DNA of 59,930 nucleotides from a virus: positions 1-59,930 of IMG/VR virus record IMGVR_UViG_3300021962_000115, one strand, 5' to 3'. Under the pieces are notes generated by a model. The model searched no databases. It was given only the letters and a program-made list of their open reading frames with translations, and had not been told where the DNA came from. A program made the translations under genes and the position numbers. Positions 7,197 to 59,930 of the stretch are shown here, piece by piece; position 1 is the stretch's first letter; the number at the start of each line of letters is the position of its first letter.

Positions 7197-8029
7197 GCAT
7201 AGTATTTAATGCAGATGATCATAGTTATGTTAGTGTAGATCCAAATGATCAGATCAAATGGACTAGTGTAACTACATTAATTTCAAGTTTAAAGAAACCT
7301 TTTGATGCAAAAACAGTTGCAGCTAAAGTATCTAAGAACAAGAAGTCTAAATGGTATGGTATTACTCAGAAAACCATATTAGAAATATGGGAAAATGAAG
7401 CTAATAGAGCTACTACACTTGGTACATTTTATCATAACCAAAGAGAATCTGACTTGTGCTCATTAGCATCTATTGAAAGAGAAGGTGTTACTGTTCCAGT
7501 ATTTAAGCCTTATGAAGCAGAAAATGGTCTAAAAATTGCTCCTTCACAAAAATTAGAACCAGGCGTGTATCCTGAACATATGGTCTATCTTAAGTCAGCA
7601 GGCTTATGCGGCCAATCAGATTTAGTTGAAGTAGTCAATGGTAGAGTTAATATCATTGACTACAAAACTAATAAGGAAATTAAAACAGAATCTTTTAAGA
7701 ACTGGGAAGGAATGTCTGAGAAAATGCTTCCACCTGTAGATCATTTAGATGATTGTAATTTTAATCACTATGCATTACAGTTAAGTGTATATATGTACAT
7801 TATCTTAAAGCATAATCCTAAACTTCAACCAGGAAAGATATTTATTCATCATATTACATTTGAAACATCAGGAGAAGATCAATATGGTTACCCTATTGCT
7901 AAATTAGATGATAATGGAGAACCAAAAGTATTAGAAGTAATACCAATGCCAGTACCTTATCTTTATGATGAGGTTATCTCAGTTATCAACTATCTTAAGG
8001 AGAATCCTTATATTATTAAAAAGAAGTAA
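7193..8029 (+). CDS. PD-(D/E)XK superfamily nuclease (RecB/Cas4-like)
   Basis: A 278-residue protein with the ordered motifs of RecB-type PD-(D/E)XK nucleases: GTFYHNQRE with His81 and Glu85, GQSDLVEV with Asp143, IIDYKT with Asp156 and Lys158, and QLSVY with Gln196 and Tyr200. The metal-binding and catalytic residues are all present, so it should be an active DNA nuclease. crAss-like phages have such nucleases near their packaging block; a role in trimming DNA before packaging is plausible. It lies four genes into the packaging operon and overlaps the zinc-ribbon gene by 4 bp. Confidence 0.8.
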   Translation: MSIVFNADDHSYVSVDPNDQIKWTSVTTLISSLKKPFDAKTVAAKVSKNKKSKWYGITQKTILEIWENEANRATTLGTFYHNQRESDLCSLASIEREGVTVPVFKPYEAENGLKIAPSQKLEPGVYPEHMVYLKSAGLCGQSDLVEVVNGRVNIIDYKTNKEIKTESFKNWEGMSEKMLPPVDHLDDCNFNHYALQLSVYMYIILKHNPKLQPGKIFIHHITFETSGEDQYGYPIAKLDDNGEPKVLEVIPMPVPYLYDEVISVINYLKENPYIIKKK

Positions 8030-34653: not shown

Positions 34654-36203
34654 TGAATAATAAGAAAGTACTCAGTAAAGCAGTTAAGAATCTTTCTAAA
34701 ACTAAGAAGGTTGCAAAACCTAAAAATATAATAGAAGATCCTAGAGGTCAGTGGGCACATCCTGGTGAGATAACCAGGATACCATCTGATACTATAACTA
34801 TGCAAGGAGTACCTTATCCTGTTATGGCATACCCTAATATAGGACAACCACAAATGATGTATCCAGGACAAGAGTACTATTTTCCAGGGGCAGCTCATGT
34901 AGATGAGTATCCACAGATGCAAGATGGAGGTATAATTTCTCAAGAAGAAATAGATGCCGCTAATAGAGCTATGATGAAAGCAAGATTAGCATATGCTCAA
35001 ATGCATGGTAATCCTGCTGCTCAAAGAATGGTGGTTGCACCAGATCAACCCTATCAGTTTGATAATGGAATGATAGGTACACACTATATGGCATCTATGG
35101 ACAATTATGCTGTACCACAAATTCAAGGTGTTGATGGACAACTAGTGCTAGGTGATTTTGGTCCAGAGTCTGCAGAAGCTATGAGATTTGATAATCCTGA
35201 AGATGCAATGTACTTTGCAGAAAATTATAAACAGATAACCCCAGATGAATCATATAGACAAGAAGAAGATGCCTATATAGAAACAGAACTTACCCCAGAA
35301 GAAATACAAGAATACGCTAAGGGGGGTTGGGTTGTAGAAGAAGTAGATGAAATTTCTGCACCAACAGATCTTGATCCAAAAACAATGGCTAAGTACAAGA
35401 AAGCACTCAAGAACCAAGAGAATGCTGGAAAGGCTGGTTACAATAAAGCACAGGATAGATGGTATCCACATGTAAGTCCAGAAGGAGGAAAGAAAACAAT
35501 TGGTTATGGACATAAGCTTACAACTAACAATTATGCTAATGGTTTATCAACAGCAGAAGTAGAAAGTTTACTTGACTCAGATATATTAAAACATCAAGCT
35601 ATTGCTGAAAAACAAGTTGATGAGCAATATGGTAAAGGAACTTTTGATAAACTTCCACAAGATTCTCAGATGCTTCTTGTAGACTATGCTTATAACCTAG
35701 GTACATTAAAAGAATTTCCAAAGTTTGTTAATGGTGTAGTTACAGGTGACAAAGAAAAAATGTTGGCTGAGCATAAAAGATATAGTGGTTCTAGTCCTAT
35801 TACTAGAAGGAACCAATGGACTGTTGATACAATAAATACTATGGATACTACTATTCCATCAAAAATAAACTTACCTGTCCCTACTAATTCTACACAAACA
35901 ACTAAATCTAATAAGGATAGATGGGGAAGATCTCCTAATACTATTTGGTATGGTTTTAATCCTGAGACTAAATTATATGAACAAAAAGGTTTGCTCTGGC
36001 CTCAATATGGAGATCCAGGCCCTGGTATTGGAGGACCACTACCAGGATCTTATATATCCCCAGGACAAAGACTAAGAGAATATCAAGAAGGATTAAAGAA
36101 ACAATCTAAAGGTGGTCAGTATAATATTGGAGATGAGGTTGAGCTTACAGAAGCTGAAGTAAAGAGATTAAGAAGTTTAGGTTATACCATTGAAAAAATC
36201 TAG
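34653..36203 (+). CDS. Virion lysozyme (GH24-like) with tagged ends
   Basis: The 516-residue protein has a lysozyme domain at about residues 245-400. Glu256, Asp268 in QDRWYPHVSPEGGKK and Thr282 in TIGYGHKL are the likely catalytic set of T4-type muramidases, with slightly longer spacing than in T4 lysozyme. It should open peptidoglycan for tail penetration, distinct from the endolysin at 4841. The N-terminal 200 residues are Pro/Met/Tyr-rich. A motif at 211-231 (LTPEEIQEYAKGGWVVEEV core) aligns with the C-terminal motif at 496-516. A DRWGR module at 422-447 recurs in the 1551-residue protein. The muzzle upstream supports a virion location. Confidence 0.65.
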   Translation: MNNKKVLSKAVKNLSKTKKVAKPKNIIEDPRGQWAHPGEITRIPSDTITMQGVPYPVMAYPNIGQPQMMYPGQEYYFPGAAHVDEYPQMQDGGIISQEEIDAANRAMMKARLAYAQMHGNPAAQRMVVAPDQPYQFDNGMIGTHYMASMDNYAVPQIQGVDGQLVLGDFGPESAEAMRFDNPEDAMYFAENYKQITPDESYRQEEDAYIETELTPEEIQEYAKGGWVVEEVDEISAPTDLDPKTMAKYKKALKNQENAGKAGYNKAQDRWYPHVSPEGGKKTIGYGHKLTTNNYANGLSTAEVESLLDSDILKHQAIAEKQVDEQYGKGTFDKLPQDSQMLLVDYAYNLGTLKEFPKFVNGVVTGDKEKMLAEHKRYSGSSPITRRNQWTVDTINTMDTTIPSKINLPVPTNSTQTTKSNKDRWGRSPNTIWYGFNPETKLYEQKGLLWPQYGDPGPGIGGPLPGSYISPGQRLREYQEGLKKQSKGGQYNIGDEVELTEAEVKRLRSLGYTIEKI

Positions 36204-36205
36204 TC

Positions 36206-38314
36206 ATGGCTAAATATAGAATTACAAGTACTCCAGATGATTCTTTCAAAAAAGGTGGAGAACGTAAAAAGAAAAAGAGGAATAATGACAAAGACTACCG
36301 ACATATTCCTATAACTCCAGAAATGCAAGCAGAGATGCCTGCAGATGAGTGGGGTCAATACATTCAAGAAGTACCTGAAGTATATACTACTAGAACTAGA
36401 GAACAACAGGATATTAGAAATGCTCTTGACTATCAACAAAGAATGGCTGAATTATATCCGGGTAGACCTACTCAGTCAGATGCAATACAACCTGCTGATT
36501 GGTTTTGGCAGTTAGGTGCTCTTGGAGCAACAGGAGCTGCAGGAGATCTATTAAGTGCAGGAGAAACTTTAGGTACTAAAGCACTACCTTATATTGAAAG
36601 TGCTCTTAATACTTCAATACCTAAAATGAGTTCAATTCCTGGAGCCACTTTTGGTAATGCTATGGGAGCTTATTTTGCAGGAGATGCTATAGTTAATAGA
36701 TTATACCCATCTGCAGGTAAAATACAAGAAGGTGAATATGGTGAAGCTGCAACGGATATAGGAACAGGTTTATTAGACCTATGGGGAGCTAACATGTTAA
36801 GTCCTCTATATAAAGGAGCAAAAGCTACAGCATCTGAACTTAGTAAGTTTATAGGTGCTGAGGATTTTAGTATATTTCCTAAACAACCTATTCCGCTTGA
36901 AGGCTATGATCTATCAAAAGGAAGAGCAACTAAATCACTTATTCCTGAAGTAGTTGAAGAACAAAAAGTTATAGAGCCTTGGAGAATGCAACCTATGCCA
37001 GGATTACATTTAAAGTCTACAATGACAACTAATCCAAAAGGTTTACATACACAAGTAGCAAAAGATGGAACTATAAATGTAGAAAATGCTTTAAAATTTA
37101 TTAAAAATAATGAAGGACAAGACAAGTATAATCTAGTAACTAAAGCCTTAGGACAAAACCTACCTAAGAAAATGGACTATAATCAATTTAGAAATCTCAT
37201 ACAAAAAGAATTAGTACCATTAGAAAAAACTGTAGGTGTCCGAGATAATAGTGTATATGGTTTACAAAGACTTGGTTATACTGTTGAACAGCCTAATGTA
37301 ACTACATATTATTCAGATGGTGAAGCAAAAATTATAGAAAATCAAACTATTCTATTAGGTAATAGAAATCAATTTGGTAGGGGATCTACTGCACATGGTA
37401 ATCCTGATGAAACTTTAGGTCATATTCATTTCTTTAGAGATTCTGATACTCCAGATGCATTAACTATTTCACAAATACAATCAGATGCATTTCAAGGTAC
37501 ACATCGGTCATCAATAAGAACTAAAGAACAGGCTGAATCTTCTCTAAGAGAAACGGAAAAACATTATGAAAGATTAAAAAAATCCTTTGACCAACTTACT
37601 CTAGGACCTGATGGTTTCTATCAATTACCCGATGGACAAGTAATGCGTAAAGATATGGCTGATGCTATGCTTAAATCACAAGCAGAAACAATTAATCTAA
37701 TGAAATCAGATTTAAAAAACTTTGATCAAAGACAACTATTAGATAAAAATCATCAAGAAAGATACTTACAAGAAATTGTACAATATGCTGCAGAAAGAGG
37801 TGATGTTAACAGAATTAAATTACCTACTTCAGAAACAGCAGCTAAAATACAAAAATATTCAAAAGAGACATGGGATGATATTGAGGATTTTAGAAGCTAT
37901 ATGCAAGCAGAATATGACCTTGATCAAGCACAACAATTTGGAGACCCTGAAATTATTAAGTCAGCACAACAAAAAGTTGATAAAATTAAACAACAACAAA
38001 TAGATAGAGTACCAGATTATAGATCAAAACATAAAACTATTCTTAAAAAATATAATGAATTACCTAAAATAATTAAGAAATTATATGGTACAGAACCTAA
38101 AATAGTAACAGATAGTAAAGGTAATACGTGGTATGAACTTAATATTCCATATGAATTTAAAGAGGGACCAGCAGAAATAAAAGCATTTAAGAGTGGTGGA
38201 CAATATGCAGCTGCTCTACCACAAGAACAAGATAGAGGTATTGTCACTTCTCTAACAGATGCTGAAATCAAACAATATATAAAAGATGGTTATATTGTAG
38301 AAGAGATCAAGTGA
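36206..38314 (+). CDS. Putative ejected protein with polyvalent-type domain and C-terminal tag
   Basis: The 702-residue protein begins with MAKYRITSTPDDSFKKGG followed by a very basic stretch. Residues about 95-185 are Gly/Ala-rich and hydrophobic (LGALGATGAAGDLLSAGE), possibly membrane-active. Residues about 400-680 match a domain I recall from very large phage and integrative-element polyvalent proteins: GHIHFFRDSD, LTISQIQSDAFQG, YLQEIVQYAAERGD, LPTSETAAKI and GNTWYELNIP. The activity of that domain is not established. The C-terminus (681-701) carries the LTDAEIKQYIKDGYIVEEI motif shared with two neighbours. It probably enters the host with the DNA. Confidence 0.55.
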   Translation: MAKYRITSTPDDSFKKGGERKKKKRNNDKDYRHIPITPEMQAEMPADEWGQYIQEVPEVYTTRTREQQDIRNALDYQQRMAELYPGRPTQSDAIQPADWFWQLGALGATGAAGDLLSAGETLGTKALPYIESALNTSIPKMSSIPGATFGNAMGAYFAGDAIVNRLYPSAGKIQEGEYGEAATDIGTGLLDLWGANMLSPLYKGAKATASELSKFIGAEDFSIFPKQPIPLEGYDLSKGRATKSLIPEVVEEQKVIEPWRMQPMPGLHLKSTMTTNPKGLHTQVAKDGTINVENALKFIKNNEGQDKYNLVTKALGQNLPKKMDYNQFRNLIQKELVPLEKTVGVRDNSVYGLQRLGYTVEQPNVTTYYSDGEAKIIENQTILLGNRNQFGRGSTAHGNPDETLGHIHFFRDSDTPDALTISQIQSDAFQGTHRSSIRTKEQAESSLRETEKHYERLKKSFDQLTLGPDGFYQLPDGQVMRKDMADAMLKSQAETINLMKSDLKNFDQRQLLDKNHQERYLQEIVQYAAERGDVNRIKLPTSETAAKIQKYSKETWDDIEDFRSYMQAEYDLDQAQQFGDPEIIKSAQQKVDKIKQQQIDRVPDYRSKHKTILKKYNELPKIIKKLYGTEPKIVTDSKGNTWYELNIPYEFKEGPAEIKAFKSGGQYAAALPQEQDRGIVTSLTDAEIKQYIKDGYIVEEIK

Positions 38315-45281: not shown

Positions 45282-48188
45282 ATGGCAACCTACTTACAGG
45301 GAGTTACAGATTACATACCACAGTTTCAACCGTTTCAACCGGATCTGAACTTCTATGATAATGTAATGCAAACAAAGCAGACCCAGTATGATAATAACTG
45401 GAAAGCTTTGAATACTATGTATAGTAAATACTACTATGCTGATCTCACACGTGATAACAATGTTAAAGCAAGGGATTCTTTCATTAAAGATGCTCAGTTT
45501 AACTTAAAGAGAATCTCTCAGTTAGATCTATCTCTTGAACAAAATGTTCAACAAGCAGCTCAAGTATTTAGACCGTTCTATGAAAACCAAGACCTAATGA
45601 AAGATATGGCTTGGACAAAAACTAAGAACACTGAACTTGCAGCAGCAGATAGTTTTAGAAAATCTCTTGATCCTGAAATGAATAAAAAGTACTGGGATAC
45701 AGGAGTACGTGAAATTAATTATCTAACAGAAGAATTTAAGAATGCTACTAATGAAGAAGCATTAGGCTTTAGTAATGTAAGATATACGCCAAATATAGAT
45801 ATCATGGGCAGAGCTCAGGAAATTGCAAAAGAATTTGGTGACATTCAAACTGTTAAGTTTACTGAAGATAAGAGATGGATTGTAAAGACTAAGAATGGAG
45901 AACAACTTGAAGAACCACTTCAAAAGTTATTTGAAGCTAGATTAGGTAATGATCCATCTGTACAATCATACTTTAAAACACAAGCATACGTTCAGAGAAA
46001 GGACTATGCTATGGCAAATGCTGCACAATTCAATGGTGATAAAAATGCTGCTGAAATGAAATACCTTCAAGATAAGTTTAATATCATGAAGATTCAAAAT
46101 CAGAATGCTTACAAACAAATGAAGGAGCAGAATGCTGTATATGATAATAAGATAGCAGATATCCAATCTCAAATAGATAAGGGTAATAAAGATCCACTTC
46201 TACAAAAAGCACTGGATCAATATACTATGAACAAGGATATCAATAATGAAGTACTAACTAGGATTGAAAAAGAGAATGCTTTGATGGAAACAAATCAAGC
46301 AGATCCAAATAATCCTTATGGTGATATCCAATCATTTAGATACAAAGTTGATTCAGGTGTTGCATCTCAACTAATGAGCAAATCTTTGGGTGAAGCAGCT
46401 CACACATATGCATTTAGAAACTATTTTGAAGATCTTGATGCTAATCCATATCAAGTTAACCAAGAGAAGTTCCAACAGAATATGGCTCTTGCTAATCAAA
46501 AATATCAAAATGATAGAAAGCTTGCTGAATATAAAGCTGGCCTAAAAGAAAAACTTGATGATAGAAAGTACAAACTTGATGCTGGTACACACTTCTTAAA
46601 TGAAAAAGGTGAACTAGTTGAGAAGTTTGATCAAAATCACTTCTTTACTGAATCTAATGACTCAGGTACAGCAACTGATAAAACAAATGTAAGATCTACA
46701 GCTGAGTATGTACAAAAGAGATATACAGAAAACTATGCTAGTCCATACTTTCAGACTATGATGAGAGTTCTTACTGAAGCTACTGATAGTGATACAGGAA
46801 AGAAATTAACTCAAAAACAGATCAACTATATTATAAATGGTGATGAGAATAAGTACGCTGATTTAAATAGATGGGCTAATAAGATACAAACAAATGCCAA
46901 TTCATTCCTTACTGATAAAGTTGGTGAAGGTTGGATGAAAGCTATTAACTATAGATTTAAAAACTTTGTGGCTCAGAATCCACAATTAACTACTATTAAA
47001 GATAATCAAGAAGCCCTAGCTACAACAGCAACTAAGTTTGATGACTATTTATTATTCTTAGGTGAGAGTAAGAAGTTTGAGAAAACTCTTACATCTGGTG
47101 TAGAAAAAGAACTTGCAAAACAAGGATTTAAGCATGCTAAGTACTTGTATGATGAAAATGGTAATATAAGAAGTAAAGAAGCATTTTTTAGAGCTCTACC
47201 AAAAGGTGCAAATCTAGATGCTGAAGGAAAAACTTCAGGAACACCCTTATATGTAAGTAGTGGTTCTCCATTAACAATGGGAACATCTGGTGATACATAT
47301 GTTAGTGTACCAAAGAATTACTATGAAAATCTTATAAGTGCTGCAAGATCTATTGTAACAGATCAAAATAAAGTATCTAAAATTACAGGAAGACAATCTA
47401 TACCAGGATTAGAAAAAATATCTGATGGTACAGGTATGTTTGGAAAATCAATGTTTACAACAGTTAATCCAAAAAGTTCTTGGGGTACTTATCACTATGG
47501 ACAAGTATTAAATAACTTAAGATCACAAGACTTAGGTTCTAATAATGTTAAGATTAGTGTAGGTGGTCTGAGTGTTACCGGATTAAAAAATAGTTTATCT
47601 GATGAACAAGGTCTAGCATTTCTACGAGAACTACAAAGAGAAATGGATAAAGGCACCAAAGGGTTTAACTTCAAAATGGGAGTCGCACCTATTGCTCTAA
47701 ATAATGCAAATAAATCAGCGTACATATTCCAGGTTTCACCTGACTTAATCAAAAGTCTTACAGGTAAACTTGATGATGATGGTAATCTTACAGGAGGTAT
47801 ATTTACTCCAACACAGGCATCAGAAGTTATGACAAATGGTGTATCATTTATAATGGACAAAAATATGTTCAATTCTGATATGTATAACAGTATGTTTGCT
47901 GATCCATTAGCTGCTTATGTAGATAGAAATAAAAAGTATAGTTGGTCTGATCCTGTAGATCCAAGATATACAATTAATATTAGTAAATCTGGAATTGGAG
48001 GAGATGGTAGCTATCAAATAGATAATTCAATGCCAGTATTTGATGAAAAAACAAATACATGGACAGTTGCTAGCTTTACTAATATTGTAGATAATGCTAA
48101 ACAAAATTTAAGTGATCTTAGAGATTCAACAATCCAACAAGGTAATCAAGTAAAACTTTATAACAATAACCTCCTTAATGGCTACTGA
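45282..48188 (+). CDS. Putative internal/cargo virion protein
   Basis: The 968-residue protein starts MATYLQGVTDYIPQFQPFQP, then contains NFYDNVMQTKQTQYDNNW, YYADLTRDNNVKARDSFIKD and LDLSLEQNVQQAAQVF. This opening is one I associate with conserved internal or cargo proteins of Bacteroidota podoviruses. The middle (about residues 260-460) is highly helical with coiled coil, and the C-terminal third is mixed. No enzyme motif or membrane segment is seen. Its stop overlaps the start of the 2226-residue gene by 11 bp, suggesting translational coupling and a shared role in ejection. Confidence 0.55.
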   Translation: MATYLQGVTDYIPQFQPFQPDLNFYDNVMQTKQTQYDNNWKALNTMYSKYYYADLTRDNNVKARDSFIKDAQFNLKRISQLDLSLEQNVQQAAQVFRPFYENQDLMKDMAWTKTKNTELAAADSFRKSLDPEMNKKYWDTGVREINYLTEEFKNATNEEALGFSNVRYTPNIDIMGRAQEIAKEFGDIQTVKFTEDKRWIVKTKNGEQLEEPLQKLFEARLGNDPSVQSYFKTQAYVQRKDYAMANAAQFNGDKNAAEMKYLQDKFNIMKIQNQNAYKQMKEQNAVYDNKIADIQSQIDKGNKDPLLQKALDQYTMNKDINNEVLTRIEKENALMETNQADPNNPYGDIQSFRYKVDSGVASQLMSKSLGEAAHTYAFRNYFEDLDANPYQVNQEKFQQNMALANQKYQNDRKLAEYKAGLKEKLDDRKYKLDAGTHFLNEKGELVEKFDQNHFFTESNDSGTATDKTNVRSTAEYVQKRYTENYASPYFQTMMRVLTEATDSDTGKKLTQKQINYIINGDENKYADLNRWANKIQTNANSFLTDKVGEGWMKAINYRFKNFVAQNPQLTTIKDNQEALATTATKFDDYLLFLGESKKFEKTLTSGVEKELAKQGFKHAKYLYDENGNIRSKEAFFRALPKGANLDAEGKTSGTPLYVSSGSPLTMGTSGDTYVSVPKNYYENLISAARSIVTDQNKVSKITGRQSIPGLEKISDGTGMFGKSMFTTVNPKSSWGTYHYGQVLNNLRSQDLGSNNVKISVGGLSVTGLKNSLSDEQGLAFLRELQREMDKGTKGFNFKMGVAPIALNNANKSAYIFQVSPDLIKSLTGKLDDDGNLTGGIFTPTQASEVMTNGVSFIMDKNMFNSDMYNSMFADPLAAYVDRNKKYSWSDPVDPRYTINISKSGIGGDGSYQIDNSMPVFDEKTNTWTVASFTNIVDNAKQNLSDLRDSTIQQGNQVKLYNNNLLNGY

Positions 48189-51100
48189 TAACACAAATGA
48201 AGGTATAAGCCCTCTAGATAACTTAGGGTCAAGTTTTGGAGGTCTCAATCTTCCTAACACTCCTCAGGCTATGCAGCCATTTGAAGGAGATAGAATCAAA
48301 ATGGATGAAATTAACTTTCCAAAACCTGATTCTTTTAGACCAATACAACCAGCTTTTGACAGTCTTAGTCAAGAACAACTTAATGTAAAAAGAAATTTTG
48401 TAGGCAATGCACCTGGAAAGACTGGTGCTCCAAAGGGTACTGATATATCAGATGTAATATCAGCTATTGGTTCTAATCTAACAGCAACTCTAAAGACCAG
48501 TCAAGATAAAAATACTTATGGTAGAATCTATCAATATAACTCTGGTCCAGATAGTAATGCATTCTATAAGAGATATGCTGCATATGGGCAAGAGAAATTT
48601 GATAAAATTGGTTTTACTCCCCTTAGAGATAATGAAGCTACCTTTAACGCTAATACAACAGGATGGGATGACTTTAAAAGAATGATGCAATACTCATTCA
48701 TTCCACTTGTTGGACATGGTTTTATTGCAGGTCCTAAGAGTTTAATAAATGCATTAGGTGGTGATTTTGGTGGAGATCTAGATGAAGCACGTGCATATGA
48801 AGAAGCTACAGCAATTGGATACTCATCAAAAGGTGGTGTAGGATCATTCTTTAACAATGCTCTAATGAACTTTGGGTACACTGCTGGTATTATTACAGAA
48901 GTGCTTGCTGAAGAAGCTCTCTTAGGTGCTATTACTGGATTAACTGGTGGAGCAACTGGAGCCCTAGCAGCTACAAGAACAGGTGCTAACTTAGCAAGAA
49001 TTGGTAAGGGCTTTGCGCAAACCTTCTACATGGACAGATTTGCAGCACAGTTAGGAAAAGCAGTAACCAGTCTTAAGAATACAACAGCAGCAAGAAATTT
49101 CTGGAAAGCTGCAAACAGTCCTGCAGGTAGATTTTTTAATCCACTTACAAATACATTTGAAGCTGTAGGAAATATATCTAAGATTAGTAAGTTTGATAAC
49201 CTTACAGGCCTAGCAAAACTTTCTAAAACAGCGGGAGGTTTTTATGCTGATGTAAGAAGACTCAATGCTGCTTTTTCTGAAGCAAGATTAGAAGGTGGTC
49301 TTGTAGAGAACCATGTGTATGATAATCTCTACAATGAATACTGGGATAAAAACGGCAAAGCTCCATCTAATGATGAAGAATATCAGATGCTGAAAATGGC
49401 AAAAGATGCTTCTAAAGAAACAATAGGTTGGAATACAGCTCTAGTGTATCTCTCTGAAGGTCTTGTGTTTAATAATATATTTACCCCTAAGGGTGGTATG
49501 CGTAGACTTCTTGCTGGTAAAACAGAAGAACTCATGCAACTTGCTGAGGGTAGACTTGTTGCTGAAGTAGGTACAAAAGCTGGAACAAAAGCTCAAGAAG
49601 TTACAGCAAAATATATCAAAAACTCTTTTAAAGAATCTTGGAAAAAGTTTAAAGCTGCTCCAGTTAGATCTACTCTTAAAGGTATTGGGACATATGCAAA
49701 AGCAAATTTTGTAGAGGGTCTCCAAGAAAATGCTCAAGAGACAATTGCTCAAGCAACAGAAACTTATTACAAAGATCTTTATAACCAAAGTGAAGCTCTA
49801 AGGAGTCACATGTTTGCTAGAGCTGCTATGACAAACGGTATGAGAAGTAAGTTCTCATACTATTCAGATGCTTGGGCTGAACAAAATCCACTTACTGAAA
49901 AAGGATTTGAAACCTTTGCTACTGGTTTTGTTATGGGTATATTTGGTGGTGGTCTGAATATGGTTCCTGGATTTGTATCTAAGGGATACAATAAAATCTT
50001 TGATCCAGCTGAATATAAAAAGTACTATGATAAAAAACATAAGTATGGAGAACAACTAGCACAAACTCTAAACGACAATTTATTCAAAGATCCAATGAAG
50101 TTCTTTGATGAGAAGTTATTTAATCTTGCAGTTCAAGATGTAGCTGGTAAACAAAAACTATCAGGTTCAAGAAAGCAAGTTATTGATGCTATGACTGATG
50201 ACTCAATGACAACTGCTATTCTAACTGCTATTAATACAGGAACTCTTGGTGCATTTAAATCACAATTAAACTCATATAAAGAACTTACTGATGTTGAATT
50301 TGAAGATGCTTTTAAATTAGAAAAGGGTGAAGGAGCAAAGAGAAAAGCTAAAATTGATTCAGTTCTACAAAGAATGGATGAAATTGAAGCAGACCACAAG
50401 GAATACAATGATAGATATCCAGATCCAATAGATCTCTCAGGTTATAAGAAAGGTACAGAAGCTTACAATAAAGCTGCTATATATTTATCTGCATGGCAGA
50501 GATCTAGAAACAATGCTATATTCCTAGGTCAGACATTTAAAAATGCTAAACTTAGAAGGGATGATATTAGAAAACTATTAGGTACTAATAAGCCATTATC
50601 AAAAATGACTGATACTGAGCTTATGGTTCTATTAGATACTGATAGACTACCTTCTGAAATTGGTATTCTTGAAAATGAAATTGCTGCAGGTAAAGATGTA
50701 CTATCTGCAAAAGAACTTGCAAAGAAACAACGGAAGTTGGATGCTCTAAAAAACTTTAGAGATAAGGTTGAGTACTTCTATAAATATGATAATGCTGAAC
50801 TAGAAGGCCAGATATCTAGTCTTAGAGAGCAAGGTAGATTTAAAAATGTTAGAGATGATGAGGGTAACCTCATTGATGAACAAGAAGCAGAGGAGATAAC
50901 AAGAGATATTATCCGTAAGCAACTTAATATAAAAGAAAGATCTGATAGGAATACTACTCAAGCTGAATCAGAATTAGAACTTGCATACAAAGACTATTTA
51001 AAAGCACTAGCAGGTTTAAATAATGATGAGTACTTAGACAAAAATGCTGACAAAGCTTTTGAAGAACTTCTTGATAACTATAAACTAGGTAGAGAAGCTT

Positions 51101-54100
51101 CAATTCTAAACAAGCATGTAAACCTGTTATATGATCCTAATGAGTTTATGAAACATGTAGAGAGAAACTTTGCATGGATGTCAGACACTTATAACAATAG
51201 AAAAGAATACTTTGATTCTCTTGTCAACCAGGAGCTAGATAACATTGAACTCAATGCTCTACTAAACGTACTTGCAAATGATAATGTATATGTAAGTCCA
51301 GAAGCTCTATATGAATTTAAGAGAAGTGGAAGAATTCCAACTGAGTTCTTTGATGCAAGTAGAAATATGGTAATACAACCTGGAAGTCTTGAGTACAATA
51401 AATACGTACTAATATTCCAGAATGCTCTTAGATTAAAAAATCTTGATCCAAAAGCAAAAACAAATACCAATGAAAAACTATTCTTACAGCTGAACCAATT
51501 ACATGCTGAAGAACAAAGAGAGCTAAATGCTCTACCACAAAAAGAAGTAAGAGAAGAAAAAGCTAATCTAGATATGCTAGGTAAGCAAACAGTATTATTA
51601 TCTGAAATTGCAAATCAATTAGCTGATGGTGATACACTATCTGCATTCTATTTAGATAATGGTCAACCAAGAGAAATACTTATATACAAGGATGGTGATG
51701 TCTTCAAAGCAGATAACAAAGAGGGAGCTGAAATCAATGTAGAGTCTGTTCAATTTAAACTAATAGACGGTAAGATATTTACAACTAAACAAATTCCTGC
51801 TGATCCTATTGCAGCTCAAAAAATTAAAAATGAGTATGCACAGAAAAGAGAACAAGCTATAAGAGCTGCTATTGATGAGGTAAAAGAAACTCCTGAGTCA
51901 ACAGTTAAAGACTTTGTTCCATTCACAGAACTCACTCCACTTGATGAAATGGATGAAGCTCTATATAAAGATCTACAATTACTATTCAATACACACATAG
52001 AAAAAAATAATCTTGAAGAAGAATATGGTAATCTATCAGATGAAGCTGTAAAAGAAAAGTTTCAAGAATTTGTTAGAGATAGTAAAGAGGCTAAAGAAGC
52101 CATTGAGGAATATAACTCTAAAGCAAAAGCTGAAAACCTTGAAGCAAAAGCTGCAAATGTTAAAGCACCTTCTATCTATGTTAATGATGTTCTAGTTGAC
52201 ATGAGTACAGTCAGTCTAGAAGAAGCAAAGAGAGTTCTTGCAGATTTAGAGAAACAATATGATGCAAAAAAAGATAGAGACCTTTCCAATGAGGAAAGAG
52301 AACAACTACTTATTGATGAACTTCAGATAACTGAACTAAGAAAGTATATTGAAAGTGTAGAGGCTTTAGAAGTAGATGAAGCTACTGGTGAAAAGAAAGC
52401 CAAAACTGAGTTAGAAGAACTTGCAGCTGAAACTGCTAAACGCAGAAAACTAGCTGAACAAGCTCTACAAAGAAGAATAGACTTAGTTGAGGAGAAGAGA
52501 AAACTAATTGAAATAGAGGAGTCCAATATAAAAGATACCCTAGACTATTTAGAGCAATTACTTGATAATACTGTTGAACTAACAGGAGTACAGGTTGAAG
52601 ATCTCATAAATAAAATTGCACAATTAGATAAGACAACTGCTCAACTCTTAAAATCTAATCAGAAGAAACAATCAGGTAAGATAAAAGAGAGATCTAGATT
52701 ATATAAACAACAACTGAGAAGAGAATTTGCTCTATTAAATGATATCATGAATAGAGTACGTGAACTAAAACAGGAACAAGCTCAACTCAATGCAATTAAA
52801 AAAGATCTTAAGAAACAAGCAGATTACTATAGAAACTTATTAGCTGATCCTAAGTTTGATCTATTTACTAAAACTGACATCCGAAATAAGATCCAAAGAA
52901 TTGAAAAGAAAATAGGAACTATTCAAAGACTGATTGAGATCCTAAGGAATGCCATTGCTAGTTCTGTTGAATATATGAAAGAATATCTTTCTATATGGAA
53001 GACTCAAAATGCTGCTCTCAATAAAATTAAAAACTCTGGGTTTAAAGAACTTAGTAGAGAAGAGTTTGATGCTCTTGTAAAAGCTGTAGATGAAACTAGT
53101 AAACAGGAACTAGAAGATCATTTTGAAACTAAGAGAATGCTGGCTCAACTGGAAAGAGATATCAATGAAAGCATGGACAATGTAGAATTCATTGATGCTG
53201 TAAGGGAGCAAGAGCAGAATAGAATGATGCAACTTGAAGGTGCTATACAAAAGTACCAAGATCAAGTAAGATATCTATATGATCTTCTTGAACCGGTTGC
53301 TGGAGAAGCTGTCTCTGAAAAATTAAGTAGTGAGGGTCAAAATGGTCCTGTTCCAACAGAAGTACGTACACAAACTGTAGAGGAGTTATTTGAACAAGAA
53401 GAAAAGAAAACTATTCTTTCTACATTCTCTCTTGCTGATATTGCTGATCTTGATAATGCTTTAACAAGTGAAAGGGTTGGTAGACCACTTACACCACAAG
53501 AAGAAAAACTTGAGTCAGTAAGGTCCATTATAAAAGATGTATTAAGAAATGCATCATTTATAAAACTATCAGAAGATGGTAGCAAGTATGTAAATACTAA
53601 AACTGGAAAAGAATATCAGCGTGTAACAAGTTATACTAAAGAAGAAGATATTAAAGATCCTATTCTACCAAATGAAAGTATAGAAGAATACAGAAAGAGA
53701 TTAACAGACCAGGGTTATTCACCTAAAGATGTTAATAGAAAACTTGTGATGGCTTCTTCTCAAATTATTGGTAATAAGGTAGATGACTTCATTAGAGACT
53801 TCTTCTCTGGTAAAGTAAAGGATATTTCTAAATATAACTTTGCACCGGTAGAAGAAATTGAAAAACTTAAAGCTAGACTAGAAGAAATCAAAAAGAACCT
53901 TGATGCAAAAGGTGAAATAGTTCTTGCTAATAATGTTGTACTATATAATGATGATCTTGGTGTTGCAGGCACTGTGGACTTATTAACTTTTGATGTAAAT
54001 GGAGACGTAAGAATCTATGACATTAAAACAATGAGAGGTAACCAATTTGCTGAAACATATGCTGGGGATACAAAAGTTAAATATGAATCTAATAACTTTG

Positions 54101-54858
54101 GTAAGAGTAATCGTCAGAAACATACTGAGCAACTATCACTATACAGAATTCTATTAAATAATACTCATGGTCTAAAAGCTAAAATGTTGGCTATCATGCC
54201 AATAGCTCTTGACTATGCTGGTGGAGATACATCTAGTAATTCAGTTGATTTACTAAAAGGACTTGAGATTATACCTCAAGATGCTGTAGGTAACGCAGTA
54301 TTAGTAGAACAAAAATCTACTGTTGAAAATGTTCAAGATTCACCACAAGCAACTACAGGAATTAAAGTAGCAACTGATATACAAAAAGAGCTCAGACAGC
54401 AATTAAATCAAATGGGTTACTCAAATACTACAATTGACTTACTACCCAAAGCAGAAATTGAGTATATTATAAGAAACGGAATTCCAAAAGAGCAATATGC
54501 TAATAGAATTGTTACTGACACATTATCTGATGAGAATGGACACTTCTGGGCACTCAAAGGAGATCCTGTAGTTATAAAATCTATTACAGATAAGGGTGTT
54601 AATATAGGAAAAGTTAATAGAAATAGTAGTATCTTTATTACTTTCAAACAGTTACAAGATTCAACAGAAATGAGCACAGCAGTTAAACCTAAAGCACCTG
54701 TTGCAAAAGCAACTCCAGAACAACAAACCATTCTGAAAGAAAGCACTGATCTAGCACAAGATGTTATTAAAAAAGAAATTAATAATACAGAAGATAGAAT
54801 TAAAGATGCTAAACTAGAAGAATTAGAGAATACTTTATTTAATACAGAAATCTGTTAA
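48178..54858 (+). CDS. Giant ejected protein with membrane-active region, coiled coils and PD-(D/E)XK nuclease domain
   Basis: The 2226-residue protein has Gly/Ala-rich hydrophobic segments at about residues 230-265 (FGYTAGIITEVLAEEALLGA, then ITGLTGGATGALAAT) and 580-600 (FATGFVMGIFGGG), which could insert in membrane. Residues about 690-1750 are charged helices and coiled coils. A RecB-like PD-(D/E)XK nuclease lies at about 1830-2050, with Asp1934 in GTVDLL, Asp1948 and Lys1950 in YDIKT, and Gln1985/Tyr1989 in QLSLY. All catalytic residues are present. It may travel with the phage DNA and attack or process DNA in the new host. It overlaps the upstream gene by 11 bp and is followed 3 bp later by another giant gene. 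Confidence 0.65.
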   Translation: MATDNTNEGISPLDNLGSSFGGLNLPNTPQAMQPFEGDRIKMDEINFPKPDSFRPIQPAFDSLSQEQLNVKRNFVGNAPGKTGAPKGTDISDVISAIGSNLTATLKTSQDKNTYGRIYQYNSGPDSNAFYKRYAAYGQEKFDKIGFTPLRDNEATFNANTTGWDDFKRMMQYSFIPLVGHGFIAGPKSLINALGGDFGGDLDEARAYEEATAIGYSSKGGVGSFFNNALMNFGYTAGIITEVLAEEALLGAITGLTGGATGALAATRTGANLARIGKGFAQTFYMDRFAAQLGKAVTSLKNTTAARNFWKAANSPAGRFFNPLTNTFEAVGNISKISKFDNLTGLAKLSKTAGGFYADVRRLNAAFSEARLEGGLVENHVYDNLYNEYWDKNGKAPSNDEEYQMLKMAKDASKETIGWNTALVYLSEGLVFNNIFTPKGGMRRLLAGKTEELMQLAEGRLVAEVGTKAGTKAQEVTAKYIKNSFKESWKKFKAAPVRSTLKGIGTYAKANFVEGLQENAQETIAQATETYYKDLYNQSEALRSHMFARAAMTNGMRSKFSYYSDAWAEQNPLTEKGFETFATGFVMGIFGGGLNMVPGFVSKGYNKIFDPAEYKKYYDKKHKYGEQLAQTLNDNLFKDPMKFFDEKLFNLAVQDVAGKQKLSGSRKQVIDAMTDDSMTTAILTAINTGTLGAFKSQLNSYKELTDVEFEDAFKLEKGEGAKRKAKIDSVLQRMDEIEADHKEYNDRYPDPIDLSGYKKGTEAYNKAAIYLSAWQRSRNNAIFLGQTFKNAKLRRDDIRKLLGTNKPLSKMTDTELMVLLDTDRLPSEIGILENEIAAGKDVLSAKELAKKQRKLDALKNFRDKVEYFYKYDNAELEGQISSLREQGRFKNVRDDEGNLIDEQEAEEITRDIIRKQLNIKERSDRNTTQAESELELAYKDYLKALAGLNNDEYLDKNADKAFEELLDNYKLGREASILNKHVNLLYDPNEFMKHVERNFAWMSDTYNNRKEYFDSLVNQELDNIELNALLNVLANDNVYVSPEALYEFKRSGRIPTEFFDASRNMVIQPGSLEYNKYVLIFQNALRLKNLDPKAKTNTNEKLFLQLNQLHAEEQRELNALPQKEVREEKANLDMLGKQTVLLSEIANQLADGDTLSAFYLDNGQPREILIYKDGDVFKADNKEGAEINVESVQFKLIDGKIFTTKQIPADPIAAQKIKNEYAQKREQAIRAAIDEVKETPESTVKDFVPFTELTPLDEMDEALYKDLQLLFNTHIEKNNLEEEYGNLSDEAVKEKFQEFVRDSKEAKEAIEEYNSKAKAENLEAKAANVKAPSIYVNDVLVDMSTVSLEEAKRVLADLEKQYDAKKDRDLSNEEREQLLIDELQITELRKYIESVEALEVDEATGEKKAKTELEELAAETAKRRKLAEQALQRRIDLVEEKRKLIEIEESNIKDTLDYLEQLLDNTVELTGVQVEDLINKIAQLDKTTAQLLKSNQKKQSGKIKERSRLYKQQLRREFALLNDIMNRVRELKQEQAQLNAIKKDLKKQADYYRNLLADPKFDLFTKTDIRNKIQRIEKKIGTIQRLIEILRNAIASSVEYMKEYLSIWKTQNAALNKIKNSGFKELSREEFDALVKAVDETSKQELEDHFETKRMLAQLERDINESMDNVEFIDAVREQEQNRMMQLEGAIQKYQDQVRYLYDLLEPVAGEAVSEKLSSEGQNGPVPTEVRTQTVEELFEQEEKKTILSTFSLADIADLDNALTSERVGRPLTPQEEKLESVRSIIKDVLRNASFIKLSEDGSKYVNTKTGKEYQRVTSYTKEEDIKDPILPNESIEEYRKRLTDQGYSPKDVNRKLVMASSQIIGNKVDDFIRDFFSGKVKDISKYNFAPVEEIEKLKARLEEIKKNLDAKGEIVLANNVVLYNDDLGVAGTVDLLTFDVNGDVRIYDIKTMRGNQFAETYAGDTKVKYESNNFGKSNRQKHTEQLSLYRILLNNTHGLKAKMLAIMPIALDYAGGDTSSNSVDLLKGLEIIPQDAVGNAVLVEQKSTVENVQDSPQATTGIKVATDIQKELRQQLNQMGYSNTTIDLLPKAEIEYIIRNGIPKEQYANRIVTDTLSDENGHFWALKGDPVVIKSITDKGVNIGKVNRNSSIFITFKQLQDSTEMSTAVKPKAPVAKATPEQQTILKESTDLAQDVIKKEINNTEDRIKDAKLEELENTLFNTEIC

Positions 54859-54861
54859 TCA

Positions 54862-57800
54862 ATGGCAATTACTTGTACACTTGGTCGTGATAATATTATT
54901 AAACTTTTAGATGCTGTCTACAAGAAAATGCTTACTGTTCCTGAGGGAGAGGTATTTAATGTAGATGAATATATAAACTATTTGTACAATGGTTTTGAAA
55001 AAGCACAAAGTAGAGATGTTGCATTACAATATATTCAACAAGTACCGTATGTTATAGGTGCTGTAGAAGCACAACTAGGTGGTGATCTCAAGTTAAATAT
55101 ACCAATTGAAAGACTTAGAGAAATAACAAGAGCTTTTAGAAATGCTGAGACAGGTTTAAATGCTATTGAAGAGTACCTAGGTCTTGCACCAATGACACCT
55201 GAGCAACTTCAAGCTAAAGCAAACTACACAGCAAATACACCAACTGGAACAGATGCGGAGCCAGTATCAGAAGGTAGAGCTACTGAGATAGGTGACATTG
55301 CTCTAAAAAGTAGGACTATATTCTCATCAACAGGTATTGAGTTTTTAACTCTTGACCCTAAAACAAAAACCGCAGAGACTGTAGAAATAATTGATAAAGA
55401 TAAACTTAGAATCTATAATACAATTTCTAGAATCTATAATGCTACATACAACTTTGATAGTACACTAGGTAATCCAGTGTATCAGGGTCAAGAAATAACA
55501 CTTGTTCCTGTTGCTCTAAACAAACTACCAGCAGATCAAATGACTGATGAGCTTAGTGCCCTGTTGGCTAAAATGAACGCTATTAATAAACAGGGAACAG
55601 GTACAGGAAAAGTATCCCTTCCAAGTGAAGTATTCTTGTTAGTAGTTTCTGATAGAAGTGGTAATCCAATTTACTTTAATGAAGTAGGAGATATAACAGA
55701 TAAAAAAACCGGTAAACTAGTTTATCAAACACTAAGAGATGTAAGAGAAACTAAAGATGGTTATGCTGTAACCAACATGTACGGTTATGAAAAGATAATC
55801 ACTCCAGCTGAAGAAGCTAATCTCCGTTATAAAGAAATGGGATATACTTCAAAAGTTGACTATGAAAAACAGACTGGAAAATCATTTAAAGATTTAATTG
55901 AAGAAGTAAGATTACAACAACAAGAAGAAGCTAAACAACTCTTTAATCTTAGACAAAAACTAATTAAAGGTGAGAAGTTTAAACTCACCATTACAGGTGC
56001 AAGTAGAGGTGTTTCTAATAAATCTATAAAAGAAAATATTAGACTAGATCAAATAGATTCTTTCTACGCAGAACTTGCAACTGAAATCTTAAATAGTATT
56101 AGGATACTAGATACGCCAGCATACGGTCTTAAACAAGGAGAAGCATATATTATGCTTGGAGAAGGTATTGATCAAATTTATGCTCTAGATAGAGCTGATG
56201 TCAAGCAAGAACTTGCTGATAAGATTGGTCAGATACTAACTTCAAATGATCTCTCAGCAGATGAGAAGTTCAAACTTTACTCACAGTTTTATGCTGAGGA
56301 AATAGTTGATGTACCAGATAAAACAAGAAGACACCAAGTATACTTTGATAAAGATACTGGAGTTCTAACATTTGAGTACTATGAGTTTACTAAACAAGAA
56401 ATGGATGCAAAGGGCATCAGTCTAGAGAATAATCCAGTTAAACAAATTGATTTAACTTCTCCAAGAGAAGGAGCCCTTAAGGATATAGTTTATGTTCTAA
56501 TGCATGGTAAATCATCTGCAAAAGGTAAGAGATACCCTGCAAAGTTTGACTATAGTAGAGATCTAATCAAGCAAGGTACATACTCTGATTATGTAAATGG
56601 TGAGATTGTAGAAAAGAGCTACCATGAGTTCTTAAAACAACAGGGAGCAGAAATTTTCTTAGGTAAGAAAGGTGGTCTACCACTATTCAACTCTTACATT
56701 AAGTTTGCTGCACCCAATACTATAGTAGCTGAAGTTGCAGGTACTAATGAGGAACCGGTTGATAACAGATCTGAGATACGTAAGTTTAAGGACAAAATGG
56801 TGGAGGAGATCTTGTTTGCACCAGAAAAATCTATTAAAGCTAAAGTTACTGATGTAACTCCAATACAATCAAATGGACCAACTACCTATAACTATAATGT
56901 AACTATTGAAGGTCAAGAAGGCACACATAGATTCTATGGTGCACAGGCTAGAGTAGATGTAGGTGATACTTATTATCTAACAGTTGAAGATGTTATTGAT
57001 AATGGTTTCTTATATAAAGATGTTGTAAAGGCTCGTGTAGAATCTCAAAAGAGTGGCATTCTTGATATGGGTTCTCTTGGTGAAACAGATTTTAAAACTA
57101 ATGAGCCTGCCAGAGAACCAATTCCTGTTCAAACTGTAACTGCAGCAAAAGAAGCACAAAAGGAAAGTTTAGATAAAGTTGAACCCTTTCCAAATACTGT
57201 AACTGAAGATCAAGCTGCAATGGGTGATGTAAATCTTACAAACCCACAGAACACTGCACAGCCTGAAGATGCTTCTGATATCAGTGATCTAATAGCTAGT
57301 TTTCAGTTAGAAAGATCTTCTAAGTTACCAAATGGAGTTACTGCAGCACAAGTAGAAAAAGCACTTGAATGGTGGAGTAACTCTCCACTTTCTCAGTATA
57401 TCAAACTTATACAAGCAGCTAACATTGTAAACTCTGATGTATATGCTAAGTTTGTAGCAGCTGGTGCAAGATTAATTACAGATAAAAGCCTTGACCTTGA
57501 TGGTAAACTAGGTGCTATCATAATTAATCCAACTACAGGTGGTACAATGGTTGACGGGTACCATGAAGCATGGCACGTTTTCTCTCAGTTGTTTTTAACA
57601 AAAGAAGAGAAAAGAGCACTATATGATGAAGTAAGAAAATTAAAACCTGAATATGCTAAACTATCTTCAAGAGAAGTTGAAGAAATGCTTGCAGAAGATT
57701 TTAGATCCTATGCTCTTAATCCAAAAGTAATTAAAGGTCAGACTAAAAGAAACACACTCTTCAGAAGAATTCTTAACTTCCTCAAGAAGTTATTTAGAAT

Positions 57801-59930
57801 TAACCCATCTACAACAGATTTAATTAGAAGTGAGGAACTTGCAACAGAAGGTGTTGCTGGTGAGTTATTCCAAAACTTATACTTTGCATCTAAGAATCCA
57901 GCATTACTTAATAACTACACACCATTAATAGACAATGTTCTATTAGATGAACTGAACCGTGGTATTGAGTTAGCAGGTAATAAGAATGAAGATGCACTAA
58001 CAGATTATGATTCTGCAATTGCTATTGAGTCTATTGACTCTCTCTTAGCTGAAGTAACAGATGCTACTTTTAAAAGCAAGGGTGCTTTAGATGCTAGTGT
58101 ATCTATCATTACAAATGAAGAAAATAAGGCTAAGTTCTTCAACTTTGCTAAGCAAAGATTTGAGAAACAAATTAAAGATATCCAAGATAAATTAGAAGTA
58201 AAGCCAGCTAAATCTTTTAACTCTTTTGAAACTCTTAAGAACCTTGAAGACAATGCGGTTGCTATCCTTAGAACTACTAAGGGTGATGATAAGTATGTTT
58301 TCCTTAGAGGTCAAGTTGAAGATTTTAATAATCTAGACCTAAACACTAAAGGTGGTGAGAGAATTAAGGGTGAATTATTTGGTGGTGTTGTTGAAATTAT
58401 AGGTGACTATTTTAATCACAATAAGATAAAGGGTAGGAATGAAGCAGGAGCAGGAATAATTATAGTAAATACTATTGAAGAAGCTCAAGCTCAATTTGAT
58501 GCTTATGCAAAAGCACAAGAAAAATTAGATAAGGAATCAAGATCCTATACAAATATTGAACTATTTCCAGATAGAACTGTAAATGCATTTGAAGTTAATT
58601 ATGATCAAGGACAACTCTTAGATAATCTAAGGATCCTTCAGTCAATGGTTAACAACTGGGAGAACACAATTAGGTACTTTACTAAAAACTCTGCGTTTAA
58701 CATCATGACTAAAAAAGTCACTGTTAAAATGCAAGAAGAAGATCCTACTGATGAAGCTCAGACAGATCCAACTAAAGCACAGACATTTGATAAGACCTAT
58801 GATGTAAACCTACTAGACATTGCAGATAAAGAAGTAGTATACATTCTCAAAAGTTTATTTGCAGTAACTAGAGACAATAGTGGTAAACCTATATATCAGT
58901 ACAATAAACTGGGGTATAGGAAGCTTGCAAACTATAAGAAGGTTTGGAATGCTGTAGTACGAGCTACTAATAGCACAAAGGACCCACAAGAGATGTACAA
59001 GAATATTGTCAATGCTGTAGCTACTTATCCTGAGTTACAACAACTTGTAGAGAGTAGATTACCTAATCCACAACTTGTTGGTGCTCAGGGATATACAGGA
59101 AATGTAAGTAGAGCATTTGATATCACAACATCTTTCTGGTCTGTATTTAGTTTACCCAGAGTCCCTTATATGCAGTTAACTGTATTCAAGGACGGTGATA
59201 ATGTTACTGGAGTTGAAGTAACTAATGCTGCAACAGATATTGGTAATACAATTAGAAAGTTTGAAAACAACTTTGCATCAAGACTAGACAGCTACTTTAC
59301 ACGTAGAGATGAGAACAATAAAACAGTACTAAAACTTGGTGCTGTTGTAGATGCATTCAGTGATAAAGCTGGTAACTTTATATCAGGTAGAGAATTTGAA
59401 TTCTTAAATGCTATTGGATTTAGCCTTGATGATATTGGTAAAATTAAAACTGCTCTATCTAATCCCGCAAACAAACAGAAGTTTGGAATTGATTATATCT
59501 TCAAAACAGTAAAAGATCTATATGAAGCAGAAGCTGCAGGATCAATGACTGATGCTGCAAGAAGATATCTAAATGACTTCATTTCTAAACCAATTACTAC
59601 ATTAAAAAAGGGTGTTGAGCCAGGAGTAATAGGTTTAAGAAATAGTTTCTTATTTACAAGAGGTTCAAAGCAAACTCAGATTGATAAGATCATTGAACTA
59701 CAAAACAAATTTGGTGCAGCATCTTCAACATTTTCAGTTCAAAATCCAGAGAAGAATAGAGTAAATGAGCATGTCAATGATAGTACACTAACAGTTATTG
59801 CAGATGGAATCAATACTTCTGCAATGAGAACTGATATGTATAGATTCGGCAAGACTACACAGCACTTGGATCCTAAAATGAATCCATTTGCTGAAGTATC
59901 TCTTGCACTAAAATCTATGTTCCTTCCTGA
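54862..59930 (+). CDS. Giant protein with HExxH metallopeptidase motif (3' partial)
   Basis: ATG 54862, 3 bp after the previous stop, opens a frame without a stop codon to the window end: at least 1689 residues. I followed this frame codon by codon to the end. HEAWH at residues 901-905, within DGYHEAWHVFSQLF, is an HExxH zinc-binding motif, and a conserved-looking EEMLAEDF (940-947) about 35 residues later supplies the likely third ligand, Glu941 or Glu945. The N-terminal 850 residues are mixed and the part after 1000 is helical. I recall similar peptidase motifs in giant polyvalent proteins of phages. An RNA polymerase signature such as DxDGD is not visible in this part. Confidence 0.65.
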   Translation, partial: MAITCTLGRDNIIKLLDAVYKKMLTVPEGEVFNVDEYINYLYNGFEKAQSRDVALQYIQQVPYVIGAVEAQLGGDLKLNIPIERLREITRAFRNAETGLNAIEEYLGLAPMTPEQLQAKANYTANTPTGTDAEPVSEGRATEIGDIALKSRTIFSSTGIEFLTLDPKTKTAETVEIIDKDKLRIYNTISRIYNATYNFDSTLGNPVYQGQEITLVPVALNKLPADQMTDELSALLAKMNAINKQGTGTGKVSLPSEVFLLVVSDRSGNPIYFNEVGDITDKKTGKLVYQTLRDVRETKDGYAVTNMYGYEKIITPAEEANLRYKEMGYTSKVDYEKQTGKSFKDLIEEVRLQQQEEAKQLFNLRQKLIKGEKFKLTITGASRGVSNKSIKENIRLDQIDSFYAELATEILNSIRILDTPAYGLKQGEAYIMLGEGIDQIYALDRADVKQELADKIGQILTSNDLSADEKFKLYSQFYAEEIVDVPDKTRRHQVYFDKDTGVLTFEYYEFTKQEMDAKGISLENNPVKQIDLTSPREGALKDIVYVLMHGKSSAKGKRYPAKFDYSRDLIKQGTYSDYVNGEIVEKSYHEFLKQQGAEIFLGKKGGLPLFNSYIKFAAPNTIVAEVAGTNEEPVDNRSEIRKFKDKMVEEILFAPEKSIKAKVTDVTPIQSNGPTTYNYNVTIEGQEGTHRFYGAQARVDVGDTYYLTVEDVIDNGFLYKDVVKARVESQKSGILDMGSLGETDFKTNEPAREPIPVQTVTAAKEAQKESLDKVEPFPNTVTEDQAAMGDVNLTNPQNTAQPEDASDISDLIASFQLERSSKLPNGVTAAQVEKALEWWSNSPLSQYIKLIQAANIVNSDVYAKFVAAGARLITDKSLDLDGKLGAIIINPTTGGTMVDGYHEAWHVFSQLFLTKEEKRALYDEVRKLKPEYAKLSSREVEEMLAEDFRSYALNPKVIKGQTKRNTLFRRILNFLKKLFRINPSTTDLIRSEELATEGVAGELFQNLYFASKNPALLNNYTPLIDNVLLDELNRGIELAGNKNEDALTDYDSAIAIESIDSLLAEVTDATFKSKGALDASVSIITNEENKAKFFNFAKQRFEKQIKDIQDKLEVKPAKSFNSFETLKNLEDNAVAILRTTKGDDKYVFLRGQVEDFNNLDLNTKGGERIKGELFGGVVEIIGDYFNHNKIKGRNEAGAGIIIVNTIEEAQAQFDAYAKAQEKLDKESRSYTNIELFPDRTVNAFEVNYDQGQLLDNLRILQSMVNNWENTIRYFTKNSAFNIMTKKVTVKMQEEDPTDEAQTDPTKAQTFDKTYDVNLLDIADKEVVYILKSLFAVTRDNSGKPIYQYNKLGYRKLANYKKVWNAVVRATNSTKDPQEMYKNIVNAVATYPELQQLVESRLPNPQLVGAQGYTGNVSRAFDITTSFWSVFSLPRVPYMQLTVFKDGDNVTGVEVTNAATDIGNTIRKFENNFASRLDSYFTRRDENNKTVLKLGAVVDAFSDKAGNFISGREFEFLNAIGFSLDDIGKIKTALSNPANKQKFGIDYIFKTVKDLYEAEAAGSMTDAARRYLNDFISKPITTLKKGVEPGVIGLRNSFLFTRGSKQTQIDKIIELQNKFGAASSTFSVQNPEKNRVNEHVNDSTLTVIADGINTSAMRTDMYRFGKTTQHLDPKMNPFAEVSLALKSMFLP

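Follow-up and report, generated by a model that had tools for sequence, protein, structure and literature searches.

Predicted Metallopeptidases in Phage-Delivered Polymerase Proteins

No viruses of the human gut are more abundant than the crAss-like phages, which inject giant proteins. The virion RNA polymerase of phage N4 is of the single-subunit, T7-related type, and that of the window (the whole stretch of 59,930 nucleotides analyzed here) is of the two-barrel crAss type. A peptidase attached to a virion polymerase is already known, from N4-like phages and from a “ZnMc_tr” label in one crAss-like genome. The zincin-like metallopeptidase (MPTase) domains of polyvalent proteins, which include those of N4-type virion RNA polymerases, carry their HExxH and their Glu on successive helices and reside inside very large multidomain phage proteins that are delivered with the genome; those of the N4 type are fused to a virion RNA polymerase (Iyer et al., 2017; PMC5512222). 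Metallopeptidases in N4-type virion polymerases and in other multidomain injected phage proteins have been proposed to process those proteins (PMC5512222). The window encodes a predicted zincin-like domain that resembles these systems in both motif layout and setting, but it is only weakly related in sequence to the N4 metallopeptidase domain (hhalign probability of 7.6%; E-value of 0.0046 with one template, with the strand preceding HExxH in register) and has no Pfam match. Two unrelated kinds of virion RNA polymerase, the N4 type and the crAss type, are thus each linked to a metallopeptidase.

Among the giant proteins of Crassvirales (crAss001 gp47, gp49, and gp50, and phi14:2 gp65-gp67), the same domain was found at the C-end of crAss001 gp47 (residue 2157, E-value of 1.6e-45) and in the fused giants of Suoliviridae, in which domain and polymerase are contained within one giant ORF. 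Only approximately 150-240 residues follow the domain in crAss001, cr128_1, and Dulem virus 41, where it forms the C-terminal part of a protein encoded beside a separate polymerase gene. In contrast to the arrangement in crAss001 gp47, the domain in the group of the window shares its ORF with the polymerase, and the nuclease is found in the preceding ORF. In Rudgehvirus jaberico, the ORF labeled “ZnMc_tr” contains a peptidase-like HExxH in the equivalent position, but its motif (HEGIH..EEFVVEA) was not matched by the profile of the window domain. The text of the open crAss-like phage papers that were searched does not mention a peptidase in this block; the rectangles in Fig. 3 of PMC7886860 (Yutin et al., 2021) may mark the domain. 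We place the window domain among the zincin-like domains of virion polymerase proteins rather than in a specific peptidase family.

Genomic Context and Link to RNA Polymerase

The window is a fragment of a crAss-like phage, in which terminase, portal, and Crass_capsid major capsid protein genes are followed by tail genes and giant ORFs. Two adjacent ORFs (34653-36203 and 36206-38314) have similar tails, with a GGQY stretch followed by L-T-x-A-E-[IV]-K ... GY-x-[IV]-E, and the first of them contains a phage lysozyme domain (PF00959). The last giant ORF (54862..>59930, + strand) was still open at the end of the window, in accordance with its initial description as 3'-partial, and it comprises the first 1,689 aa of a protein of approximately 4,100 aa. 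It was 66% identical, over its full length, to residues 1-1705 of a 4,071-aa ORF of one relative (L008), and consists of an N-terminal region, a linker, the zincin-like domain, and the first part of a virion RNA polymerase region. Directly upstream is a cargo-type protein of 2,226 aa (48178..54858, + strand), which contains a C-terminal PD-(D/E)XK nuclease domain (53518-54339, + strand, residues 1781-2054; phrog_298 exonuclease, E-value of 2.9e-12). The same nuclease domain is present in crAss001 gp47 (1709-1875, E-value of 1.6e-31), and DAC15 gp78 ends shortly past its own copy of this type. A second PD-(D/E)XK nuclease (PF12705, E-value of 8.6e-6) is encoded at 7193-8029, shortly ahead of the terminase gene.

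The close relatives with enough sequence carried HE[AS][WF]H and, downstream in the same ORF, the RNA polymerase motif DxDxDK. In these relatives the [SG]D[FY]DxDK site (e.g., GDFDVDK or SDFDGDK) followed HExxH after approximately 1,450-1,715 residues (approximately 1,600-1,690 in the nearest ones), and complete ORFs spanned approximately 3,630-4,450 aa. A profile built from the sequence that follows the domain matched gp66 of Cellulophaga phage phi14:2, the catalytic RNA polymerase subunit (E-value of 3.4e-74; the gp66 link was drawn from genome records), and crAss001 gp50 (2.2e-47), and a phmmer search of the polymerase part against the PDB returned no matches. The N-terminal part of the polymerase region (58606..59928, + strand, residues ~1249-1688) matches gp66 from residue 168. 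The window ends before the catalytic site of the polymerase, and both DxDxD and gp66 homology were found in relatives of the same ORF; the window protein is therefore a crAss-like virion RNA polymerase, truncated short of its active site.

Alignment of profiles with phi14:2 gp66, crAss001 gp50, cr128_1, DAC15, and Dulem41 mapped the N-termini of separate polymerase genes to residues ~1021-1086 (57922..58119, + strand, an extrapolated position), and gene boundaries therefore lie just C-terminal to the domain. This stretch is a predicted zone of gene fission or processing, where, we infer, cleavage may occur. The crAss001 proteins gp47, gp49, and gp50 are virion cargo (PMC10172136; PMC6235969), and therefore the peptidase is packaged and presumably ejected together with the polymerase. 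As in the polyvalent MPTase proteins, peptidase and RNA polymerase are combined in one large multidomain ORF in the relatives, and delivery with the genome rests on the published presence of gp47 in crAss001 virions.

Motif Layout and Conservation of the Domain

Translation of 54862-59928 placed HEAWH at residues 901-905 (57562-57576, + strand) and EEMLAEDF at residues 940-947 (57679-57702, + strand), exactly where the initial annotation had reported them, with E940 35 residues past H905 and E941 40 residues past H901. HEAWH is the sole HExxH among the 19,385 aa encoded by those + strand ORFs of the window that are at least 100 aa long. In 20,000 shuffles of the giant protein, the mean was 0.0036 HExxH per copy, and no shuffled copy had EExxAExF 20-70 residues downstream of HExxH. 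H901 and H905 are predicted zinc ligands, E902 is the predicted catalytic residue, and E941 (57682-57684) is the predicted third ligand. The domain was delimited to residues 822-985 (57325..57816, + strand) by a 98-sequence alignment, AlphaFold2, and a conservation peak at residues 881-960. It is preceded by a variable, gap-rich linker (residues 641-800; 56782..57261, + strand), which had a mean identity of 15-19% and 23-40% gaps in a comparison of 18 relatives.

Homologues of the domain were found in 37 loci with a close query, in 171 and at least 405 loci with wider queries, and in 18 annotated phage records. Close-relative scans from cr118_1 and L038 added no new relatives, and that from crAss001 returned crAss001 itself and one relative. 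The genome-contig matches, mostly apparent phage contigs in metagenome bins, included no cellular homologue of known function. Five columns (H901, E902, H905, E941, and A944) were invariant in the 98 aligned homologues, the identity of which to the window extended down to ~19%; rows of this alignment had to hold HExxH and the Glu motif, and five of the 108 loci tried were without a usable segment. Nearby relatives have Y900, H901, E902, H905, E940, E941, A944, D946, F947, and other residues in common. No other stretch of 80 residues in the window protein is as well conserved as residues 881-960; this profile carries a mild bias, as its relatives were found by a query covering the region.

These data agree with the zinc metallopeptidase layout that had been read from the sequence at the outset, namely, an invariant HExxH on one predicted helix and, 40 residues past its first His, a Glu on the helix that follows. 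The HExxH of zincin-like metallopeptidases is present as HEAWH, and is altered in some distant lineages; the Glu that serves as third ligand on the next helix corresponds to E941. The third ligand is probably E941, which is the second Glu in EEMLAEDF, rather than E940, because E941 aligned with a zinc ligand of the Pro-Pro endopeptidase Zmp1, namely E185, the second Glu in PEEFFAESF. Zinc binding and proteolysis are predicted for the domain, and HEAWH probably supplies the catalytic center of a zincin-like metallopeptidase embedded in the giant virion RNA polymerase protein.

Predicted Structure and Family Assignment

The first AlphaFold2 model (residues 800-1119, 27 close relatives) had a pLDDT of 59.6 and gave no fold match. 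The second model (residues 822-985, 98 diverse sequences) reached a mean pLDDT of 77.7 and a pTM of 0.72. It predicted one helix with HExxH, at model residues 75-90 (blocks with a pLDDT of 61 and 82), and another with E941, at model residues 115-131 (blocks with a pLDDT of 89-96). The stretch before HExxH, where the edge strand of a zincin is expected, had a pLDDT of 40-60 and no predicted strand. A zincin fold is thus not proven by the models, in which both motif helices are predicted and the beta-sheet is absent.

Foldseek comparison of the second model with solved and viral structures yielded nothing significant, and scans of the domain against Pfam, PHROGs, and NCBIfam returned noise only. 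The only matches in a profile search of the PDB were Pro-Pro endopeptidases (Zmp1/PPEP), whose HETAH..PEEFFAESF was in register with HEAxH..EExLAEDF at a sub-threshold E-value of 0.11. PPEP-2 appeared at rank 22 for the first model, a weak match (E-value of 9.4), and PPEP-3 was retrieved in a structural second look at the second model at a level below significance (Z of 2.9, 105 residues, 21% identity). The PPEPs are small secreted enzymes and are not known to be phage cargo. The initial annotation had proposed double-glycine sites as possible targets; nothing ties the domain to Gly-Gly sites, and the structures that resemble it, weakly and below threshold, are those of Pro-Pro endopeptidases.

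Distribution, Loss, and Replacement in crAss-Like Phages

The domain was present in 14 of 17 transcription blocks. Besides the window, these came from a single close relative and from 15 annotated crAss-like phages, part of which had been picked because they matched the domain. The blocks of phi14:2, DAC15, and Rudgehvirus are without it; those of phi14:2 and Rudgehvirus contain a different HExxH, and DAC15, a cultured phage, makes virions without the domain. Of 136 distinct RNA-polymerase-motif loci, 63 had the domain in the ORF of the polymerase motif and 17 had it in a different ORF, and 12 loci were too short to judge. HExxH was intact in 64 of the 79 loci with a readable domain, and every relative in the group of the window retained it. 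It was changed (HExxE) or lost, with neither His left (YWEAFR), in 15 of the 136 loci, which belong to at least three groups on the polymerase tree; these loci kept the domain and had no other peptidase-like motif in the region covered. Catalysis therefore does not always appear to be needed. Apparent pseudo-peptidases within the polymerase ORF were seen in L262, L263, L269, L272, L278, L282, L289, L348, and L352, as well as in L244, L245, L247, L248, L249, and L332.

Another peptidase-like HExxH was detected in the block in 26 of 56 RNA-polymerase loci that lack the domain, vs. 10 of 2,720 shuffled sets. Several relatives and phi14:2 also contain a second, different HExxH (of the HE[FY]AH..RFKEE or HEI[LM]H..EEF/HEF type) in the ORF after the RNA polymerase. 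These ORFs are L011 19393-20904, L015 19019-20917, L020 13876-15129, L037 17328-20588, and L038 17085-20501, and, in phi14:2, g065 (L041 22038-26303).

One relative (L386 22-6429) carries a NADAR domain (residues 1762-1864) approximately 130 residues ahead of the peptidase (1994), at the C-end of a 2,136-aa protein. This NADAR domain occupies the place of the PD-(D/E)XK nuclease in crAss001 gp47, which suggests an interchangeable effector slot ahead of the peptidase. A Pfam search of eight upstream cargo proteins detected no effector domain.

Proposed Processing of the Injected Cargo

We propose, with a probability of roughly 0.5, that the embedded zincin-like domain processes the giant cargo polypeptide(s) around ejection. 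The giant polymerase protein would be packaged in the virion and enter the host with the DNA. The domain, which lies between a flexible linker and the polymerase module, would act on the cargo polypeptide(s) in cis or in trans, either while ejection takes place or afterward, and would thereby cut the RNA polymerase away from the nuclease/effector part. If the cut fell at about residues 1005-1090, the polymerase that remained would look like gp66 or gp50, which other crAss-like phages encode as separate proteins. Self-processing, cut site, and timing are all proposed here. This reading was preferred because gene boundaries lie just after the domain and because of the published proposal for metallopeptidases of polyvalent proteins. 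The invariance of HExxH and E941, the fused relatives, the replacement motifs in 26 of 56 loci, and the NADAR domain upstream in one relative were also counted in its favor.

Evidence counted on the other side includes the lack of the domain in DAC15, the altered HExxH in 15 of 136 loci, the lack of a significant library match and of a modeled beta-sheet, and the N4 virion polymerase, which is packaged uncut (PMC5512222). The crAss001 virion has bands at 270 and >300 kDa (PMC6235969), and extensive cleavage inside the virion is therefore unlikely there. Furthermore, because crAss001, cr128_1, and Dulem 41 have a separate polymerase gene and an intact domain, cutting that junction cannot be the only job of the domain. 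A broader picture, which we offer as speculation and consider rather improbable in full, is that crAss-like phages inject a self-maturing polymerase, in which the zincin would free the active polymerase and the upstream effectors; several lineages would retain it as a dead scaffold or use other metallopeptidases, and the zincin would be at most distant kin of that of N4, gained beside a polymerase of an unrelated type. The conserved, readable active site directly before the polymerase offers a single-residue handle, E902 (or the matching Glu in crAss001 gp47), on entry processing vs. attack on the host.

Alternative Functions

The strongest alternative to cargo processing, which we regard as possible although clearly less probable, is that the domain acts as an effector, which after ejection would cut at least one host protein involved in defence or transcription and for which the polymerase protein only ensures delivery. 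This alternative was named by Iyer et al. (PMC5512222). The presence of the homologue gp47 in the virion cargo is consistent with it, and so are the intact domains in phages whose polymerase gene is separate. Patchy presence, replacement by other HExxH motifs, absence in DAC15, and motif loss in several lineages are expected of conflict proteins, and a conflict-type NADAR domain lies upstream in one relative. However, the motif and its position before the polymerase are deeply conserved, gene boundaries fall directly after the domain, and no host target is known. As to the site of action, the initial suggestion of activity after ejection is possible, since crAss001 gp47 is virion cargo, but the suggested processing of virion structural proteins is not supported.

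Next in rank, and doubtful in our estimation, is a structural or packaging module that would assist the entry of the giant protein into the head or keep the parts of the polymerase joined, with catalysis secondary or lost. The loci in which the domain persists with HExxE or without the motif, in at least three groups, are in line with such a role, as is the region of N4 with the metallopeptidase domain, which is needed for encapsidation (PMC5512222). On the other hand, the motif is intact in most readable loci and throughout the window's own group.

A prohead-type protease that processes capsid or tail proteins during virion maturation is very improbable. As noted at the outset, no dedicated prohead protease was recognized in the scanned window ORFs, and no protease family was found among the scanned head-region ORFs; Peptidase_S78 likewise had no match in five relatives of 107-123 kb or in crAss001. 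Such gaps would leave room for a maturation protease, but the domain is part of the ejected RNA polymerase cargo protein, outside the head gene cluster, and therefore is unlikely to be a capsid-maturation protease. The cryo-EM atlas of the crAss001 virion contains no word starting with “cleav,” DAC15 makes virions without the domain, and a retropepsin-like protease is encoded elsewhere in other crAss-like phages. No known prohead protease family, such as Peptidase_S78, was found among the scanned ORFs of the head cluster, and the capsid-maturation reading was rejected.

The view that HExxH arose by chance in a helical region and serves no function, for which the missing fold match and zincin sheet would speak, was refuted by conservation, given the shuffle expectation, the invariance in 98 sequences, and the location in the best conserved 80 residues, and its probability is negligible.

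Annotation of Giant Proteins in crAss-Like Genomes

Some of the annotations in crAss-like genomes that read “hypothetical protein” or “nuclear pore complex protein-like” are accounted for by the domain. The giant polymerase-peptidase protein is annotated as “nuclear pore complex protein-like” in NC_055890 and related genomes (cr56_1, cr52_1, cr60_1, and cr115_1) and as “DNA helicase” in MT774379 (cr118_1), and both labels look like misannotations. In the Suoliviridae loci L039, L129, L134, L136, and L138, the giant transcription-block genes each contain 18-74 in-frame stops under code 11, which are recoded stops.
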